Positions 23,231 to 33,090 of a stretch of DNA of 64,000 nucleotides are shown piece by piece (positions within the stretch are counted from its first letter, which is position 1; each line of letters starts with the position of its first letter). The notes below the pieces were generated by a model. That model ran no database searches. It saw only the letters and a list, made by a program, of their open reading frames with translations, and was not told where the DNA came from. The DNA comes from Sporosarcina ureae. Its GTDB lineage: Bacteria > Bacillota > Bacilli > Bacillales_A > Planococcaceae. The translations under genes were made by a program, and so were the position numbers. Location: NCBI RefSeq assembly GCF_002101375.1, contig NZ_CP015207.1, positions 2,434,001 through 2,498,000 on the forward strand, given 5' to 3'.

Positions 23231-26200
23231 GTGAAAAGAAAAGTAATGGTTTTAGTATTGGTTTTTATACTGTTATTACCTGTTGTAAATACAAGCGCGG
23301 CAGGAGATTCAAAGCCGCCGGTTCTAAATAGTTTAAATGTATCAACTGCAGAATTGAATGTAGGGGATACGTTAGAAATCATAGCTGATGTAACTGATGA
23401 CTTGTCAGGCGTAAGTGATGTTTACATTCATTTTCAACATGCTGTCAACGAAGTTGATAGGGCAATGTTCTTTCAATTAGAGTACGATGAAGAAGTAGGA
23501 TTGTGGAAAACAAGTTATGTTATAAAAGAGACAGATGTAGGCGGAAAGTGGAGAATTGAAAGTATTAGTCTAAGAGATGTTGCGAATAATGATGGCTATA
23601 TTCATGAAAGTAAATTATTAGACAAAGAAAGATACTCTTATTTAATCCGTAACTCTAATAATTCACACGTTATTCCACCGACTTTTCAAGGAGTCGAAGT
23701 AATTGAAGATGAATTAATTCCTGGTCAAGAGTTAATGTTAAAAATAAAAGCATCACACGAAAAAGGAATTAAAAGTATATTGGTTCAATATAGAAGACCT
23801 AATAATCAGTCTGGTATCGGTTTTGATTTTAAATTCGATAACGAGACAGGTTACTGGATTGCAAAACATCCTATTGGCCCTCATTATCAAAGTGGAATCT
23901 GGGAATTTGAAGCCTTGAATATTATTAGCAATACAGGCAGCAGATTGTGGGTAGGAAATGAAGATAAAGACATTGCAAGTAGCTTTGATTTTAAAGTTAA
24001 TAATCTCAATACTGATCTACTTCCCCCTACTATAAAGTCTATAAAAGTTTCACCAAGATTTGTTAAAGTAGGTGATCATGTTACAGTCACGGCAGAAGTT
24101 GAAGATGACATATCTGGAGTGGGCGATATACAAGCATCTTTTATTCCTCCGTCTCGCAATAGCCGAAGATCTATAATGTTTAATGATATAAATAATGATG
24201 GAATGTTTGTTGGTTCATATAAAGTTAATAAATATGATGAAGAAGGACAGTGGAATCTGGAAAGTATAATAGTAAATGATAAAGCTGAAAACGTAAAACA
24301 ATATTTCCCTTCAGACTTTAAGAATCATGAAGAGTTAAATATGAATGTCGAAAATTTTTCTTCATCTGAAGAGAGTGAAGAGAATCCATTAACGTTGAAT
24401 GAATTTGAAGTAATGTCTGATGTATTAAATGTGGGTGATGAGTTAGTTATAGATATGAAGGTTTCTCAGAACGTTAAGTATGTTCAAGTAGGTTATAGCA
24501 TAAATAAAGAAGGGAAAAGATCTACGATAACTATACAGCCAAAGCTTGATAAAAAAACTCAAAGTTGGATAGGGAAATATACTGTCAAGTCTACTGATAA
24601 AGGTGGGATATGGTTATTAGATGACATAGCCTTAGTTGGTGATAATAATGAAGTGAAATATATAAACTCTAGGGACTTGCCGAATTCACAAGGAGTAAAT
24701 ATTACTATAAATAATACGGACCCTTTAGTAATAAAGAGCATTGATGTGAGCAAAGGAGAAATTAAAACTGGAGAAATAGCAAATATAATAGTAAAAACAC
24801 AAGGAGGAAGTTCTCGTATTTCTGAATTGAGTATAGCTTATCACTCACCTATTTATGAGGTGTTTGGAGGTGATAAATATGTTAATTTAGTTTATGATCC
24901 CAAACTAGATGCGTGGGTTGGAGAATTTAAGGCAGAAGCGACTGACGTGAATGGGATTTGGCGTTTTGATAGTGTATATATAACGGAAAATAATAATAGT
25001 AATTTAGGATTTTATAAGGAAGACGTTATAGGCTCTGGTATATATGATATTAATATTAGATCAGAAAATATCATTGATTTTGAAAAAACAGTGAGTGTTA
25101 CTGATATAGAAACACTTGGAAAAGAGAATATTTTGGAGCACAGTTCTTTGCTGAAAAACAAGTGCTGGAAGTGGTAAGAGACTTATCAGAAGGGCATGTT
25201 TTACTTACTAATGAAGCAGGAGAAAGTCTGCAAGTAAGTATTAAAGATACAAAGGTATATGGAAATCAAGGGAGAGTGAATTTCGAGATACCAGTAGGGA
25301 CTAGGGAAGGGAAATGGGAGTTTAAAGAAATGGTATTAGCGAAAGAAGGAGTGTTCTATCAATTAGATCATTTTATTAATGCTAATGTATCTGAGGATCC
25401 CATAAGTCATCAATTTTTTATACCATCAATTGAAGCAGATCATTGGGTTAGATCTAATTTAGCTTCAAAAATTAAAAAAGATAAAGATTATTTCTTCTAT
25501 GGAGATCATCTTAACTTGCTAGCTAACAGTTATATGTCCGTTAATAATTTTATTGAGAGATTTCAAAAGGCGCTACCGCCTTTAGCAGAGGAAGTGGATT
25601 ATCACAAATTACTAACTTATGCATATAGGGATTTCGCAGAGTGGCATGATCCCTTTTTATATCAATGGTGGAAAGAAGGATTAATTAATTCAATTAAAGA
25701 ACCCGCTGTCCCTGTACAAGTCTATGGTTCCACTAACTTATATTCAAATAAGTTAAAGAATGAAATGCAAATCTACTTCACAGAGGTATTGCATTACTTA
25801 CCAGATATTCATAATGCAGAAAATAAAGTAACTGCCTATATAAAAAATCCAAATGGTGTAGAATTTGCAATAGACAAATTTGTTTATGATGATGAACTTC
25901 AGAACGTTGTTACAGAGTATGAACTTAAGGGAGGATGGATTAGCGATTTCAAATTTCCGGAAAATGCAATTTCAGGGGATTGGATAATTGATAGAGTAGA
26001 AGTCCAAAATGAACTAGGTGTTAATACTTATTTAAATGGTGTTGACTTCTATGGTGCAGTATTTAAAGTTATTGATGGAGTAGAAGTAGGAGAGCCGGAA
26101 GGAGAGTTATCACCAGAAGTAACGCCACCGATAGAAACTAAGCCGCCAAATAATGATACAAATGAAGATGACGATAATAATGAAAAAATCCCTCCCAAAA

Positions 26201-27234
26201 GACCGATAATTAATGACCTCATTGATAGTGCTGATGAGATAGTCGGTTTAGCGGAAGTCGGCTCAACAATTACAGTGAAAAATGGCGATATAATTCTATA
26301 TACAGTTACAGTTGGTTCAAATGGGAAATTTGTCATTCCAATTAGTAAGTTAGCATCAGGTACTATGTTAATGTTTACAGCTACGGATCTTACTGGAGAT
26401 GTTAGCGAAGTAACTAAAGTGATTGTTCAAGATGGAACTGCTCCTAATAAACCGGTTGTGAACAGTGTATCGGATATTGATACTAAACTAACAGGAATAT
26501 CGGAAGCTAATTCAGTAATAACTATTAAAGTAGATAATAATCTAATTGGAGATTCAATTACAGACAATGCTGGTATGTTTAGTGTGAATATACCTAAACA
26601 AAAAGCCGGAACGAAGTTAAGAGTTACAGCAACTGATGAAGCAGGAAATGTTAGTCAGATATCAAGCATTATCGTTGAAAAGAAAATTGTGAAATTCAAT
26701 GACGTGGGAAGCACTTATCAGGAAGAAATAAGTTATCTGGTAAAACGCGGAGTAATTATAGGATATCCAGGAAATAAATTTAAACCGCAAGCATCCACAA
26801 AGCGATTACAAGCAATACTGATGATCCTTCGTGAAAAGGGAATTACAGACTTTACTGCACCTGATCCAGAGTTCTCAGACGTAAAAAAAGGAGACTATGG
26901 TTATGATGAAATAGCAAAAGCGGTTGAACTCGGAATTATAAGTGGGAAAGTTAGTGAGAAAACAGGAAAAAAATATTTTGATCCAAATGGATTATTGACT
27001 AGAGGTCAGATGTCAAAGATTATATCCAATGCATATGCGATTAAAGGAGAACAGACGATAGAATTTACTGATGTTAAAGTAAATGATTGGTATTACCCTT
27101 ATATTAGCATCTTAGTATTTAATAAGATTGTAACTGGATATGATGATAATAGATTTAAGCCAAACAAACCTATTTCAAGGCAACATTTTTCTGTGATGTT
27201 AGCAAGGCATTTGAATTCTGAATTTAAACGTTAA
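23231..27234 (+). pseudogene. Giant SLH surface protein with Ig-like repeats, split by one frameshift
   Basis: Two overlapping frames (23231-25177 and 25162-27234) join into one protein of about 1334 residues if one T is added to the run at 25131-25134; the sequence then reads GKENIFGAQFFAEKQ without a break. GTG 23231 follows GGAGGG and starts a signal peptide (residues 1-24). Next come six repeats of about 110 residues (LNVGDTLEI, VKVGDHVTV, LNVGDELVI with G-W-x-x-x-S/A ends), Ig-like in character. The frameshift lies in repeat six. A helical region follows, then two Big-type domains with TDxxGNVS motifs and three C-terminal SLH domains (about residues 1155-1330; TRGQMSKI, ISRQHFSVMLAR). 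It may be functional if the shift is a sequencing error or is bypassed. The role is unknown; adhesion or S-layer accessory is plausible. Confidence 0.8.
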
Positions 27235-27446
27235 AGTAATATAAAAAAAGTCTATCCGAAGGGTTCTTTTGAAAAATTCCTTGGTGATAATGATTTTGTT
27301 GTATATTCGATTATATTCAATTGCTAATTCATAGATGTATATGTTGGGAAATGACGAATCTAGATGTAGTTTTATGAAACCTATTGTTATAGACTATTGC
27401 ATATTGCTAGATTGTTAACTATGATAGAAGTAACTAAATAATAATA

Positions 27447-27604
27447 TATTGGTTCTCTGTTTATCACAGAGATGAAAAAGGAATCAGGTGAGAATCCTGA
27501 ACGGTCCGGCCACTGTAAATGGGAAGTGACTTCTATAGAGCCACTGGTTGAAAAACTGGGAAGGCAGAAGAAACGAATACCCATAAGTCAGGAGACTTGC
27601 CAAT
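27447..27604 (+). promoter_or_regulatory. Cobalamin (B12) riboswitch aptamer
   Basis: The conserved elements appear in the right order: GATGAAAAAGGAATCAGGTG, AATCCTGAACGGTCCGGCC, the B12 box GCCACTGTAA, an internal P7-P10 region (AAACTGGGAAGGCAG) and the closing AAGTCAGGAGACTTGCC that forms the kissing loop. Such RNAs bind adenosyl- or methylcobalamin and turn genes off when B12 is plentiful. It is followed by a terminator at 27685 and then by the SLH/transcobalamin-like gene, so that gene should be induced when B12 is scarce. Confidence 0.93.
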
Positions 27605-27684
27605 GTATGTTGCTTTTAAACCTTCCGGAGAAAGGTGTGCAAACGGTATCACTCAATTGGTCTGTCTATCTATTGAATATACGT

Positions 27685-27725
27685 ATGCTCTGATCTCTCA
27701 TTCGGGAGGTCAGGGCATTTTTATT
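27685..27725 (+). terminator. Terminator of the riboswitch expression platform
   Basis: The stem ATGCTCTGATCTC / GAGGTCAGGGCAT with loop TCATTCGG and a TTTTTATTT tail lies 80 nt after the aptamer and 30 nt before the start codon. The layout fits transcriptional attenuation: B12 binding favours this terminator. Confidence 0.85.
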
Positions 27726-27754
27726 TAAATGACTTTAGAAGGAGAGAACACATT

Positions 27755-30700
27755 TTGGTGAAATTAAGTAGAACGGCATTCTCGGCTTTTTTAAGTTTGT
27801 TGCTCGTTTTTTCTATGTTGCTACCAACGATCCATGCTGCTGACATTGATAGTGCCGATGCAACACTTAAGCAACTTAGTCTGGATAGTCAAGACGATGT
27901 AACTAATGAAGGACAGGATTCGGAAGCTACCACAGATGACGAATCTGAAAAGACGATTCCAGTCAGTGTTAGAATTGAGGGATATGATAAAACTATCGTT
28001 CCTCTAACAGAATTTGAAATTGCACCATATGATATTAGCCATGCGCTTCGAAGTAGCAAAGGAAATGAACCACCGCTTGCTCTTCATGCGATTGTTAAAG
28101 CGCTTGAATTACAAGGACATGATGTCTCAGATCGTAAGAGATTCGATTTTGGCGGCGGAAATTTCATTAGTAATATAGATGGTTTGAAAATGAATTCAGT
28201 AAATCCGGGTCTAGATGGCTGGATGTACTATGTGAATAATGAATTCACCTATTATGGCGTAGGTCAACATGAATTACAGCCTAATGATGAGATTACAATG
28301 TTTTTCACCACGAATTATGGATCTGTGAAGTATTCGTGGTTTAATCAATCGTATCTCACTACGCATGTGAATGAAGAGGTCGCACTAGAACTGAATACAG
28401 TTGATGGTACGATTGGCGATGCAACTATTCTTGTCAATGAACAACCATTCGAGGTGGATGGAAAGGTAATACGGACAGATGAGCAAGGTGTTGCGAAACT
28501 GCAATTCACAGAGCCTGGTGAATATCATGTTTCTGCGAAGCGAATGGATGGGGAATTTAGTAATATTACGCGTCCTTATAGCAAGATTTTAGTGGAAGCA
28601 AAAGAAGTAGTTTCACCGGAACCAGAACCAGAGAAGCCGGAGGAACCTGAACAGCCAATTCAGCCAGATCCAGTACCTGGCTATACGGTGGATACATTAT
28701 TGAATAATGTATTTAAGTTTTATAATAAAGAGAGACTCAATGGAGTTGGGGGCGTAAATCTTACTTGGACTGAAGTAGTAGCCTTACAAGCTACCAACTA
28801 TTTGGCCAGCAGCGATCATTCATTGCCAGATTGGATTGAAAAAGATCCAGGATTAGATGAAAACACATATGATACAGAACATATTCGCTATATTTTCGCA
28901 TTGCTTGCATCGGGTGAAGATCCGTCCAAGGCATGGGAAACTGAACGGAATTTATATGCTGAGTTAGCAGCTCAGCAGAAAGAAGACGGAGCTATTGGTG
29001 GAGTGAACAAGCATGTTTGGGCAATGCTGGCATTGGACACTGGCGAAAAACTAGGTCAAGATGTCGGAAGCTGGAATACTGCAAGCAAACAGAAGGCGCT
29101 TGATCACCTGCTTGGGCATCAATTATCAGATGGCGGATTTTCCTTTTCTGGTAAGACGGCAGACCCTGATATGTCAGGCATGGCTTTGCTGACATTGGCA
29201 AATTATCAAGATAACAGTGCAGTAGAGAATGCCATACAGCGTGTTAAAGATATATTACGTGAAAAACAATTAGCAACAGCTGGATGGGGATCATTTGGTT
29301 CAGAGAACTCCAATAGTATTGCCACAGTTATTTCTGGCCTGGTTGCGATTGGAGAAGATCCACTTTCAGATAGTTGGAAAAAAGGTGATGTAACACCACT
29401 TGACGCATTACAAAGTTTTCAATTAGCGAATGGTTCATTTACCTATACATTAGGACAGTATGCAGGAACTAATATAAAAGCAACGGAACAATCTCTCATT
29501 GCTTTACATGAAATCAAAACCGGAAAGTCAGTATGGGCGCAATTAGCAGTTCCTTCCGAACAGCCAGAAGTGCCTGTTGAACCGGAACCTGAAACCCCGA
29601 CTGAACCGAAGCCTGAAACCCCAACTGAACCATCACAGCCGACTGAACCGGAAGAGCCTAATACTCCGACAGATCCGGTAGTGCCTGTTGAGGGTAAAGT
29701 AACTCTTTCCGTAGAGAAAAGAACGATGGGACAGGGGGATGCAATTCCTGCTATGCAAGTGTCTCTTCAAAACGGTGACACTGCCTATACAGTATTACGT
29801 CGTATAGCTGGAGAAAAAGGAATTGACGTAATAGCAACTGGAGCTGGTCCAGATGTGTACGTGAAAACTATTGCGGGGCTTTCTGAATTTGATGGCGGCC
29901 AAAAGAGCGGCTGGATGTATTCAGTCAATGGGGACTTCCCTCAATTTAGTGCGGGCATTTATACATTGCAAGATGGAGATGTTCTTCGCTGGCAATATAC
30001 AAGAAATCTAGGGGAAGACTTAGGACAAGTGTGGGGCCCGGAAGATAAAGAGGAAGATGTAAAACCGGGTGACAAAGAAGATCCGGATAAGAAGCCTGAA
30101 GAAAATGGAAAGCTTCCTGAAGATATTGACAAGACACCAGAAGTTACTCCGGATATGACAGAACAATTAGAAGCGACTTTGGAAAATGTTCAACAAAAAC
30201 TGTTACGTGATGGCGTTCAAACAGAATGGCAATCAATCGGATTATTTAGATCAGGCGCTCAAGTGCCGGCCGATTACAAAAAAGTATTTGAACAGAACGT
30301 ACAGGAACAGATTATTAGTAAAGTCGGTACGGGCCGAGCGAAGATCACGGACATTGAAAGATTGATCTTAGCAGCTGGCGCGATTGGAGTAGATCCGACA
30401 GACGTAGACGGTAAAGGGTTGAATTTAGTAGCGAAGATTTATGACAGTGAAAAACGTCCGACTGGTGAAGATAGCTTGACCTTCCAAGGAAATAACGGAA
30501 TTATTTTCGCTTTGATTGCTTTGGACTCGAATAACTACGAAGTTCCAAAGGATGCTAAATGGAATCGTGAAAAATTGGTTGCAGAATTATTGAGTAATCA
30601 AAAAGTGGATGGATCATGGAGTTTGGAGACCACTACTTCCGGAACAACAAGCGTGGATATTACTGCAATGGCATTAGCTGCGCTCGCTCCTTATAAAGAG

Positions 30701-31630
30701 CAGGCGGATGTAAAGAAAGCAATTAACAACACAGTTGCATTTTTATCGAAAGCGCAAGGACCAGAAGGTGGTTATCATGAATCATTCGCGGGTGGGGTTT
30801 CTAGTGAAGCTACTGCTCAAGTGATTATCGGTTTAACTGCAAATGGGTTTAATCCTAGAAGCGATGCATTTACGAAGAATAACAAGAATTTACTAGATCA
30901 CTTGCTAAGTTTTAAAGCTACTGATGGCGGTTTCAAGCATTTGGTGACTGAGCAGCAATCGAACGGCATGGCAACAGAACAAGCTCTGCTTGCTTTAGTA
31001 GCATATGACTTACTCGTTAAAGGGAAAGGTTCAATATATGACTTCACTGACGTGGCAATAAAGCCAGTGCCTAAGCCTGAACCAACACCTGATCAAGTAT
31101 TTTCGGATTTAACTACACACTGGGCTGCTGATTACATTCAGCAAGCAGTGAAAAATGGAATTGTTACTGGATATAAAGATGGCACATTCAGACCAAATCA
31201 GTCATTGACGCGTGCGCAGGCTGTTTCGATACTCGTCCGCTCACTTGATTTGAAAACAGATAAAAAAGATCCGTTTACAGATACAGTAAATTATGCAGAT
31301 GAAACGCGTGCAGAAATGGCAGCTGCTTATCATCATGGTTTGGTCAAAGGGAAAGATGGTAAGTTCATGCCGGCAGCTAAAGTGACACGTGCTCAAATAG
31401 CATTAATGTTTTATCGTGCGTATGAAATTCAAAACGGCACAAAATATAATGGGAAAACGAAAACACCGTTCCCAGACATCAAGAAATACGACGCGGAAGC
31501 ACAAAAAGCGATTGGTATGTTATATAATCTAGAAATGGCGTCAGGAGAATATGGTCAGTATATGCCAGGAAATTCTACAACTCGTGCTCATGCAGCAAAA
31601 ATGATAATAGAATTTTCAGAAGTAAAATGA
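27755..31630 (+). CDS. S-layer-anchored transcobalamin-like protein (2x DUF4430, 2x alpha/alpha toroid, 3x SLH), B12-controlled
   Basis: The 1291-residue protein has a signal peptide (residues 1-29). Domain order: DUF4430/transcobalamin beta domain (about 105-187, GWMYYVNNEF); alpha/alpha-toroid with prenyltransferase-like repeats (about 310-596; QLSDGGFSF, SGMALLTLANY); a Pro/Glu/Thr linker; second DUF4430 (about 675-757, GWMYSVNGDF); second toroid (about 797-1096; QKVDGSWSL, ATDGGFKHL); three SLH domains (about 1115-1291; TRAQAVSILVR, TRAQIALMFYR). Human transcobalamin and intrinsic factor pair the same two folds, toroid plus DUF4430-like beta domain, to trap B12. The cobalamin riboswitch upstream gives independent support. 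I infer a cell-surface B12 receptor or store. TTG 27755 (GGAG at 10 nt) is the likely start; GTG 27758 is an alternative. No BtuFCD transporter lies in the window. Confidence 0.85.
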   Translation: MVKLSRTAFSAFLSLLLVFSMLLPTIHAADIDSADATLKQLSLDSQDDVTNEGQDSEATTDDESEKTIPVSVRIEGYDKTIVPLTEFEIAPYDISHALRSSKGNEPPLALHAIVKALELQGHDVSDRKRFDFGGGNFISNIDGLKMNSVNPGLDGWMYYVNNEFTYYGVGQHELQPNDEITMFFTTNYGSVKYSWFNQSYLTTHVNEEVALELNTVDGTIGDATILVNEQPFEVDGKVIRTDEQGVAKLQFTEPGEYHVSAKRMDGEFSNITRPYSKILVEAKEVVSPEPEPEKPEEPEQPIQPDPVPGYTVDTLLNNVFKFYNKERLNGVGGVNLTWTEVVALQATNYLASSDHSLPDWIEKDPGLDENTYDTEHIRYIFALLASGEDPSKAWETERNLYAELAAQQKEDGAIGGVNKHVWAMLALDTGEKLGQDVGSWNTASKQKALDHLLGHQLSDGGFSFSGKTADPDMSGMALLTLANYQDNSAVENAIQRVKDILREKQLATAGWGSFGSENSNSIATVISGLVAIGEDPLSDSWKKGDVTPLDALQSFQLANGSFTYTLGQYAGTNIKATEQSLIALHEIKTGKSVWAQLAVPSEQPEVPVEPEPETPTEPKPETPTEPSQPTEPEEPNTPTDPVVPVEGKVTLSVEKRTMGQGDAIPAMQVSLQNGDTAYTVLRRIAGEKGIDVIATGAGPDVYVKTIAGLSEFDGGQKSGWMYSVNGDFPQFSAGIYTLQDGDVLRWQYTRNLGEDLGQVWGPEDKEEDVKPGDKEDPDKKPEENGKLPEDIDKTPEVTPDMTEQLEATLENVQQKLLRDGVQTEWQSIGLFRSGAQVPADYKKVFEQNVQEQIISKVGTGRAKITDIERLILAAGAIGVDPTDVDGKGLNLVAKIYDSEKRPTGEDSLTFQGNNGIIFALIALDSNNYEVPKDAKWNREKLVAELLSNQKVDGSWSLETTTSGTTSVDITAMALAALAPYKEQADVKKAINNTVAFLSKAQGPEGGYHESFAGGVSSEATAQVIIGLTANGFNPRSDAFTKNNKNLLDHLLSFKATDGGFKHLVTEQQSNGMATEQALLALVAYDLLVKGKGSIYDFTDVAIKPVPKPEPTPDQVFSDLTTHWAADYIQQAVKNGIVTGYKDGTFRPNQSLTRAQAVSILVRSLDLKTDKKDPFTDTVNYADETRAEMAAAYHHGLVKGKDGKFMPAAKVTRAQIALMFYRAYEIQNGTKYNGKTKTPFPDIKKYDAEAQKAIGMLYNLEMASGEYGQYMPGNSTTRAHAAKMIIEFSEVK

Positions 31631-31905: not shown

Positions 31906-33090
31906 TTGAAAAAGACTTCAAAAGCTTCACACAAATTATTTAGAGCTGCTTTAGCAACAACAGTAGCAACTGGGGCATTCGTTGCGGCTGTTCCAGCAGA
32001 AACAAATGCAGCAATTAGCTTCAAAGATGTAACGAATCCGGCAGTGCACTACTATAAGCCAGTTTTAGAATTGGCAGAACGTGGTGTAGTGAAAGGGTAC
32101 GATGATGGTACATACCGTCCAAATGCTTCTGTAACACGTGCACAATCCGCAAAGATTCTAGCACACGTACTAGACTTGGACACAGTAAATGTAAAAGATC
32201 CTGGATTTAAGGATGTAAAAAAAGGTACGCCGTATTATGGTCCTATCGCAGCATTAGCTAATGCTGGATATATTAAGGGGTATGAAGATAAAGGTGTTAA
32301 GACATTTAAACCGAATAATAACTTAACACGCTCACAAATGGCTAAAATTTTAACGTTAGGTTTTGATTTGAAAGAAGAGTCATTAGCTGCTGATCGTTTC
32401 AAGGATGTAAAACCAAGTGATGCATACGCAGGTTATGTAGCGGCATTAGTAGCACTTAATATTACAACGGGTACAACACCGACTACTTTCTCACCTAATG
32501 GATTGGTGACGAGAGGCCAAATGGCAACATTCGTAGTTCGTACTGAAACAGCGTTAAAAGTAGAAAAACCTGAAGTCCCTGAGCAACCAGAAAATCCGGA
32601 TCCGACGCCACCTACAACTCCAGAAGAACCGGATAATCCAACACCAATTCCTCCGACAGTGGAAGTTGGTAACCAAATGTTACACAGTAAAATTGTGGAT
32701 ATATTAGCACAAGGCAATAATTCGACTGATGCTGTTGCAGTTTCATTGTCAGGTAACACATTCACTGTAGATATTAAAAAACCAACGACTACAGTCAATG
32801 ATTTTAAACTTGTGGCAAAACCGATATTCAATGCATTTAAGACAAATACGATAATCAACTCAGTGACAGTGTCCTTAGTTATTGATAATCAAAGTGTTGT
32901 AATTAGCCAATCAAACATTGATCTTAATCAAGACTTCGAGACGGTAGTTGATAAGGCATTGGCAAAAGTAGGCGCTAGTGGCACGACAAATCTAAGTGCA
33001 TTACAAGGTAAGACTGTTACAATGAACGTAGTAGGTACAATCGATGGTACACCTTTTAATAGCACATATTCATTCGTATTCGGAATTTGA
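31906..33090 (+). CDS. Secreted SLH-domain protein, 394 aa
   Basis: TTG 31906 follows a GGGGGG-rich site at 8-10 nt. The signal peptide covers about residues 1-35 (AAVPAETNAA). Three SLH domains follow (about 37-85, 98-150, 160-210; TRAQSAKILAH, TRSQMAKILT, TRGQMATFVVR), then a Pro/Glu linker (215-255) and a C-terminal domain of about 140 residues with alternating beta pattern and no known family. The SLH block is closer in style to the CAP protein at 10523 than to the main S-layer protein. It has its own terminator; the function beyond surface display is unknown. Confidence 0.85.
   Translation: MKKTSKASHKLFRAALATTVATGAFVAAVPAETNAAISFKDVTNPAVHYYKPVLELAERGVVKGYDDGTYRPNASVTRAQSAKILAHVLDLDTVNVKDPGFKDVKKGTPYYGPIAALANAGYIKGYEDKGVKTFKPNNNLTRSQMAKILTLGFDLKEESLAADRFKDVKPSDAYAGYVAALVALNITTGTTPTTFSPNGLVTRGQMATFVVRTETALKVEKPEVPEQPENPDPTPPTTPEEPDNPTPIPPTVEVGNQMLHSKIVDILAQGNNSTDAVAVSLSGNTFTVDIKKPTTTVNDFKLVAKPIFNAFKTNTIINSVTVSLVIDNQSVVISQSNIDLNQDFETVVDKALAKVGASGTTNLSALQGKTVTMNVVGTIDGTPFNSTYSFVFGI

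Follow-up and report, generated by a model that had tools for sequence, protein, structure and literature searches.

A DUF4430/toroid surface protein of Sporosarcina ureae as a probable riboswitch-controlled corrinoid scavenger

The DNA examined here is a stretch of 64 kb from Sporosarcina ureae (class Bacilli, family Planococcaceae; contig NZ_CP015207.1, positions 2,434,001 to 2,498,000), which is referred to as the window. It contains a cobalamin (vitamin B12) riboswitch followed by a gene for a protein of 1291 amino acids (aa) with two DUF4430 domains, two alpha/alpha-toroids and three SLH domains. Based upon the features of this locus and the distribution of DUF4430 in other genomes, this protein is probably a riboswitch-repressed, wall-anchored scavenger of corrinoids that feeds an energy-coupling factor (ECF) importer with a CbrT-like S component. 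In the mechanism that we propose, a low intracellular level of the cobalamin coenzyme would cause the riboswitch to allow transcription through the terminator that follows it. After secretion, the protein would be attached to the wall through its three SLH domains, and there the DUF4430/toroid modules would capture cobalamin or other corrinoids, possibly in a site at the toroid-DUF4430 interface. The ligand would be relayed inward, probably via membrane DUF4430 proteins encoded elsewhere in the regulon, and taken up by the ECF importer with its CbrT-like S component, and plentiful B12 would shut the gene off.

Linkage of DUF4430 to cobalamin riboswitches

Support for a role of this protein in B12 metabolism extends well beyond the window locus. 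DUF4430 was found in 38 of 121 genomes from the same family, and these 38 genomes hold 247 cobalamin riboswitches (one of them below the gathering score). Within this set, 108 of the 117 DUF4430 domains lie at most 10 kb downstream of a riboswitch on the same strand, and 113 of them at most 20 kb. The chance expectation for the 10 kb distance is about 0.9%, and a chance linkage of DUF4430 to riboswitches was rejected. The corresponding control counts at 10 kb are 12/117 for domains on the same strand with the riboswitch on the other side, and 6/117 for those on the opposite strand. When neighbouring domains are treated as clusters, 53 of 57 begin less than 6 kb from an upstream riboswitch, and the genomes with the four exceptional clusters (two in G043, one in G059 and one in G016, the last at 6.0 kb) also hold linked clusters. 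An S-layer adhesin that stands behind a B12 riboswitch by accident could account for the SLH domains and Pro-rich linkers of the window protein and for the SLH genes on both sides of it, but the linkage is seen in all 38 DUF4430-positive genomes of the family, which represent 13 genera, and in 13 other families, and we consider this explanation extremely improbable.

Class-wide, DUF4430 is present in 104 of 299 sampled genomes. Forty of the 97 DUF4430-positive genomes from outside the family were hand-picked, with multi-domain genomes favoured, and a linked riboswitch within 15 kb was detected in 30 of these 40 genomes and in 13 of 20 families. In these genomes 57 of 72 listed DUF4430 domains (72 of 85, the weakest being left out) are within 10 kb of a riboswitch; at most 48 riboswitch candidates were scored per genome and more existed in some, so that riboswitches may be missed in these counts. 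The named relatives of the central toroid-DUF4430 module of the window protein come from three Sporosarcina, Filibacter tadaridae and one Paenibacillus, and a cobalamin riboswitch is present ahead of the gene in all five of them (L054-L058). An earlier note on this DNA, made from its letters, had suggested a search of related genomes for this arrangement.

The genome from which the window derives has nine cobalamin riboswitches, and all seven of its DUF4430 matches sit behind four of them, at four loci including the window. The genes behind the other riboswitches include metE and a full-length ribonucleotide reductase alpha subunit (L013), and one riboswitch leads BtuFCD-like genes (best names under NCBIfam cut-offs) together with a corrinoid salvage operon consisting of cbiB, a cobU-like gene, a cobQ-like N-terminal half, cobS and pduO. 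The B12-dependent methionine synthase MetH is also present in this genome. Because no CbiC was found in the genome (the one family tested), the organism is probably unable to synthesise the corrin ring and would have to import corrinoids. The combination of MetH, a riboswitch-led BtuFCD-like/salvage operon and no CbiC is as expected for a corrinoid scavenger. It could also be that the protein mainly collects corrinoids that are not B12 itself, such as cobinamide or other cobamides, for the cell to remodel. The salvage genes behind a riboswitch and the missing CbiC are in accordance with this, as is the transport of cobinamide by CbrT that is described in the available text of PMC5997447, but our analysis does not tell corrinoids apart, broad binding is equally likely, and this explanation overlaps with the scavenging of cobalamin or other corrinoids proposed above; as a separate account we regard it as unlikely.

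Two other riboswitch-led open reading frames (ORFs) of this genome were also noted. A 115-bit cobalamin riboswitch at L010:5033-5224 (+) is ahead of only a small 73-codon ORF (L010:5476-5697), which starts MHNQTINDF, has no Pfam match and is followed by a hairpin, the remaining downstream ORFs of L010 being on the opposite strand; it is possible that it encodes a previously undescribed small protein of the B12 regulon. The second, a 494-aa ORF at L012:9885-11369 (-), shows only partial matches to ribonucleotide reductase alpha subunits and could be either a degenerate copy or a diverged homologue of this enzyme.

Transporters beside DUF4430 genes

The neighbourhood of DUF4430 was further examined in 20 loci from outside the family (about 12 kb each), which were hand-chosen to include 10 with a linked riboswitch and 10 without one. 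An ECF S component was found within 2.7 kb of the DUF4430 gene, on the same strand, in 15 of these 20 loci, and such components are likewise close to DUF4430 genes in L055 and L009. Of the other components, T and ATPase hits were obtained in L075 and L077, and L068 has a toroid protein together with hits for S, A and T and a Pfam DUF4430 match that was missed by the DUF4430 profile built here; L060 and L066 gave no ECF hits. When five of the S proteins were searched against PDB chains, the best match was 6FNP chain A in every case, with E values from 9e-12 to 4e-20; one of the five also gave a weaker second match (E=3.8e-4) to 4hzu, which we take to be an ECF chain. The structure 6FNP is that of the ECF-CbrT vitamin B12 importer, according to the available text of PMC5997447, and its chain A (182 aa, labelled 'Membrane protein') is presumably CbrT, judging from its length and these matches. 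Two of the five S proteins (L061, L065) are encoded at loci that lack a cobalamin riboswitch, and the link to the transporter is thus partly independent of that to the riboswitch. A gene for the PduO adenosyltransferase adjoins the DUF4430-S pair in three outside loci. At L065:5412-9249 (-), a B12-dependent ribonucleotide reductase, a CbrT-like S component, DUF4430 and PduO follow each other in this order, with no match to a cobalamin riboswitch. For the small DUF4430 proteins of L060 and L066, no cobalamin riboswitch and no CbrT-like neighbour is present within their 12-kb loci, and in these cases DUF4430 may have other uses or work with unlinked transporters.

In the source genome, L009 also codes for ECF T, ATPase and S parts and L014 for T and ATPase parts. 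The window gene itself has no adjoining transporter gene and is linked to ECF by the regulon only. The loci of its relatives offer a possible picture of how the parts could cooperate. In L056 and L057 a gene for an SLH protein is followed by one for a DUF4430 protein with a lipobox-like Cys and then by the T and ATPase genes. L055 shows this succession with an S component in addition, and its small DUF4430 protein begins with a membrane-anchor-like stretch that lacks Cys. This layout suggests a relay from the wall to the membrane and on to the importer.

The T component of L009 matches CbiQ, and this match, together with the label of the PDB chain 3u7z (putative metal-binding protein, see below), could be taken to indicate that the window protein binds cobalt or another metal and feeds a CbiQ-type cobalt importer. 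However, the S components match CbrT best, for which reason cobalt transport was rejected; a genome without CbiC would also have little use for cobalt in ring synthesis and, as a weak point, the protein has no Cys. This possibility is in our view very unlikely.

With regard to the acceptor of the ligand, BtuF had been named in the earlier note, and this proposal was not upheld. No homologues of BtuF or BtuC were found in the 20 outside loci, the related loci L054-L058 or the four loci of the source genome that carry DUF4430 (10-16 kb searched in each, and 64 kb in the case of the window). A BtuD query matched ABC ATPases in the searched loci, mostly of the ECF type, and the BtuFCD-like genes of the genome are located at a riboswitch separate from the DUF4430 loci. 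BtuF was rejected as the acceptor since no linkage to btuF/btuC was found and DUF4430 is linked instead to CbrT-like ECF genes; the likely acceptor is an ECF importer.

Architecture of the protein and its relation to animal B12 carriers

The gene at 27755..31630 (all features of the locus being on the + strand) encodes a predicted secreted protein in which a signal sequence is followed by DUF4430-1, toroid-1, DUF4430-2, toroid-2 and three SLH domains. Pfam detected both DUF4430 copies (3.5e-30) and the three SLH domains (5.2e-27), and its toroid models SQHop_cyclase_C (4.4e-9) and Prenyltrans (3.4e-6) also matched. The scores below are additionally based upon two profiles built here, A4 for DUF4430 and A5 for the toroid, whose rows include DUF4430-2 and both toroids of the window protein itself. 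The N-terminal residues 1-29 (27755..27841) resemble a signal peptide by hydropathy and sequence, with a putative cleavage site. The first DUF4430 copy (residues 115-188; 28097..28318) is divergent; it scored 51 bits with PF14478, the match being limited to model positions 20-71, and weakly (28.5 bits) with A4. Toroid 1 (residues 309-623; 28679..29623; 310 bits with A5) is colinear with the protein of L011. It is followed by the central DUF4430 copy (residues 649-752; 29699..30010), which has the motif GWMYSVNG, matches PF14478 over residues 674-749 and scored 93 bits with A4. Toroid 2 (residues 802-1112; 30158..31090) scored 353 bits with A5 and matches SQHop_cyclase_C. The three SLH domains, the presumed wall anchor, occupy residues 1116-1286 (31100..31612; Pfam and phmmer), and in phmmer this region matched the S-layer protein Sap, chain 6bt4, with E=1.7e-17. 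The protein contains no Cys and no LPxTG-like C-terminal end. Its NCBIfam search gave no name above a cut-off, and searched alone against PDB chains it matched SLH and cyclase chains only. Its three SLH domains and signal peptide (the latter by hydropathy only) identify it as a predicted SLH-type surface protein, and a secreted protein with two DUF4430 domains, two alpha/alpha-toroids and three SLH domains, as first described from the letters alone, was confirmed with Pfam and the profiles.

BLAST searches within the genome provide some insights into how these domains belong together. Residues 311-762 (toroid-1 and DUF4430-2) are colinear with, and 54% identical to, the riboswitch-led protein of L011, in which the toroid likewise precedes DUF4430, and because of this the toroid-DUF4430 pair in the eukaryotic order appears to be a genuine unit. 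The claim of a central pair in this order is thereby sustained, for residues 309-752 and again in L011. Residues 800-1291 (toroid-2 and SLH) are 60% identical to the riboswitch-led protein of L009, which has the order DUF4430, toroid, SLH. At L014:4454-11547 (-), a toroid protein without DUF4430 is flanked by two DUF4430 proteins that have no toroid match themselves; this locus resembles a divided form of the window protein, with toroid and DUF4430 on separate adjacent genes and with ECF T and ATPase parts. Toroid and DUF4430 thus co-occur, but since L009 has DUF4430 ahead of the toroid and L014 splits them over proteins, their order is not conserved.

According to the available text of PMC4350170, transcobalamins contain DUF4430. 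A profile built from 20 bacterial DUF4430 domains, searched against 177,635 PDB sequences, found Transcobalamin-1 (haptocorrin, 4kki) with E=7.6e-6 and intrinsic factor with E=0.014. In all 20 domains the Trp, Asn and Asp of the motif GWxYxVN...D are invariant; two of the sequences in the profile (L060, L066) derive from loci that lack both a cobalamin riboswitch and a CbrT-like neighbour. Together with the PF14478 matches, which are over the cut-off, the haptocorrin match substantiates the earlier proposal that DUF4430 is related to the domain of transcobalamin and intrinsic factor. For the toroid, the matches of a 17-toroid profile include squalene-hopene cyclase, the thioester-containing domain (TED) of alpha-2-macroglobulin/complement, and prenyltransferases. 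The likeness to intrinsic factor that had been proposed thus stands for DUF4430 and for the central domain order, on which it rests since the toroid is not recognisable as PF01122, the toroid of transcobalamin. Judged by these matches, one half of the protein would belong to the transcobalamin family and the other half would not.

Several observations weigh against the scavenger reading. The top match of the 20-domain profile is 3u7z, labelled as putative metal binding protein RUMGNA_00854, and a less diverse 16-domain profile, drawn from large proteins and closely related sequences and lacking the small proteins of outside genomes, found no B12 carrier in the PDB up to E=10. PF01122 (the Cobalamin_bind toroid) does not match anything in the genome at E<=10, no B12 carrier is among the best 60 of the 72 PDB matches of the 17-toroid profile, and none is among the matches listed for a toroid-DUF4430 profile against PDB chains. 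With respect to SLH anchoring, the CsaB pyruvyl transferase match in the genome scored 163.5 bits, under the cut-off of 213.1. In terms of linkage, 10 of the 40 outside genomes have DUF4430 without a linked riboswitch; each of the ten has a single DUF4430 match, and seven of them (G205, G123, G135, G171, G240, G322, G279) gave no riboswitch match. The riboswitch match of G343, which was counted as linked, is below the cut-off. DUF4430 is absent from 83 of the 121 family genomes and is therefore dispensable, and because the linked cases share ancestry, the linkage counts do not represent independent events.

The protein may also serve corrinoid uptake without a transcobalamin-like B12 cavity, with DUF4430 docking or delivering to ECF and the toroids binding a wall polymer or another protein. 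That small DUF4430 proteins adjoin the S component in loci where no toroid protein was seen, and that the toroid is not PF01122, would suit such an explanation. However, DUF4430 is a domain in common with haptocorrin, and a wall protein held by SLH domains would be poorly placed for docking to a membrane transporter, and we regard this explanation as quite unlikely. For the wall-anchored corrinoid scavenger that we favour, it is likely that the protein would work in the manner of a transcobalamin carrier. A broader proposal, which we hold in even balance, is that Bacilli possess a class of intrinsic-factor-like corrinoid receptors. In these, DUF4430 would bind the corrinoid, either alone at the membrane beside ECF-CbrT or with toroids (fused ahead of or behind them, or encoded separately) as wall traps, forming a Gram-positive B12 relay, and the same DUF4430 module would be present in the animal carriers.

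The window locus and comparison with known systems

The riboswitch aptamer is located at 27433..27618 (RF00174, 129.2 bits, E=3.7e-32). It spans the whole model (1-189), its score compares with a gathering score of 31.5, and it is the single RF00174 match at the gathering threshold within the window. The feature had earlier been started at 27447, and this match moves its start to 27433. The intrinsic terminator of the expression platform (27685..27718) has a 15-pair stem, a 4-nt loop and a T tail, and the fold of the leader (27600-27770) is better than that of shuffled sequences (z -3.3; 1 of 200 shuffles equally good). A simple search for an antiterminator, an upstream sequence able to pair with the terminator, found none. 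A putative ribosome-binding site, AAGGAGAG, is present at 27739..27746, and downstream of it the ORF starts with TTG, or with the GTG directly after it. The DUF4430/toroid/SLH gene seems to be a lone gene behind its riboswitch, and the succession of aptamer, terminator and one gene that was read earlier is confirmed by RF00174, the 15-pair stem and the ORF. In Pfam searches, other SLH proteins flank this gene on both sides (25162-27234 and 31906-33090), so that it is placed inside a cluster of surface-protein genes, and a Wzz-type gene and a polysaccharide-synthesis gene are found further downstream.

In the available text of the open literature, including papers that name DUF4430, no description of a role for this domain in bacterial B12 uptake was found. 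A DUF4430 gene of unknown function adjoins rtpR in L. rhamnosus (available text of PMC9963975), and frameshifts in one DUF4430 gene occurred independently in two lines of an experimental-evolution study (available text of PMC12176410); this gene may be dispensable under those conditions. The available text of the ECF-CbrT paper (PMC5997447) names no extracellular binder, and DUF4430 is absent from its main text; S-layer and CbrT are absent from the main text of a 2013 survey of RNA regulons, including that of cobalamin (PMC3766115). Bacteroides is known to possess surface traps for B12 (PMC6143338), and no such trap was found described for Gram-positive walls in the available text of the open literature. 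The linkage to riboswitches and transporters offers a testable function for a domain of unknown function that is present in about a third of the class genomes sampled, and it ties bacterial DUF4430 to the domain carried by human intrinsic factor and haptocorrin. Competition for B12 shapes microbial communities, and the proposed scavenger, if true, would account for the means by which bacteria covered by a wall concentrate a scarce vitamin, and would hint at the origin of half of the animal B12 carrier.

Among known systems, BtuG, BtuH and BtuJ of Bacteroides, in the available text of PMC6143338 and PMC13398666, carry out riboswitch-linked surface capture of B12 before the importer, BtuJ being DUF4465 (PMC13398666). 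The window protein is similar to them in its riboswitch-linked surface position ahead of an importer, whereas they are lipoproteins that work with BtuB in the outer membrane and it is an SLH protein linked to ECF. Their folds also differ from that of the window protein. The NEAT/Isd proteins capture haem on Gram-positive walls; compared by concept alone, they share the idea of a wall-held relay of ligand to a membrane importer, for a different ligand. The relation to ECF-CbrT consists in the CbrT-like S components that adjoin DUF4430 genes, and the NrdJ-S-DUF4430-PduO cluster of L065 resembles the nrdJ-cbrS-cbrT-pduO cluster published, in the text available, for L. delbrueckii; because of this resemblance, cbrS may encode a DUF4430 protein. 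In comparison with haptocorrin, intrinsic factor and transcobalamin, the window protein differs in a toroid that is not PF01122, in its extra DUF4430 and toroid copies, in its SLH domains and in the riboswitch ahead of its gene, whereas it resembles them in the homologous DUF4430 domain, which is C-terminal in these carriers, and in the order of toroid and then DUF4430 in its central pair.

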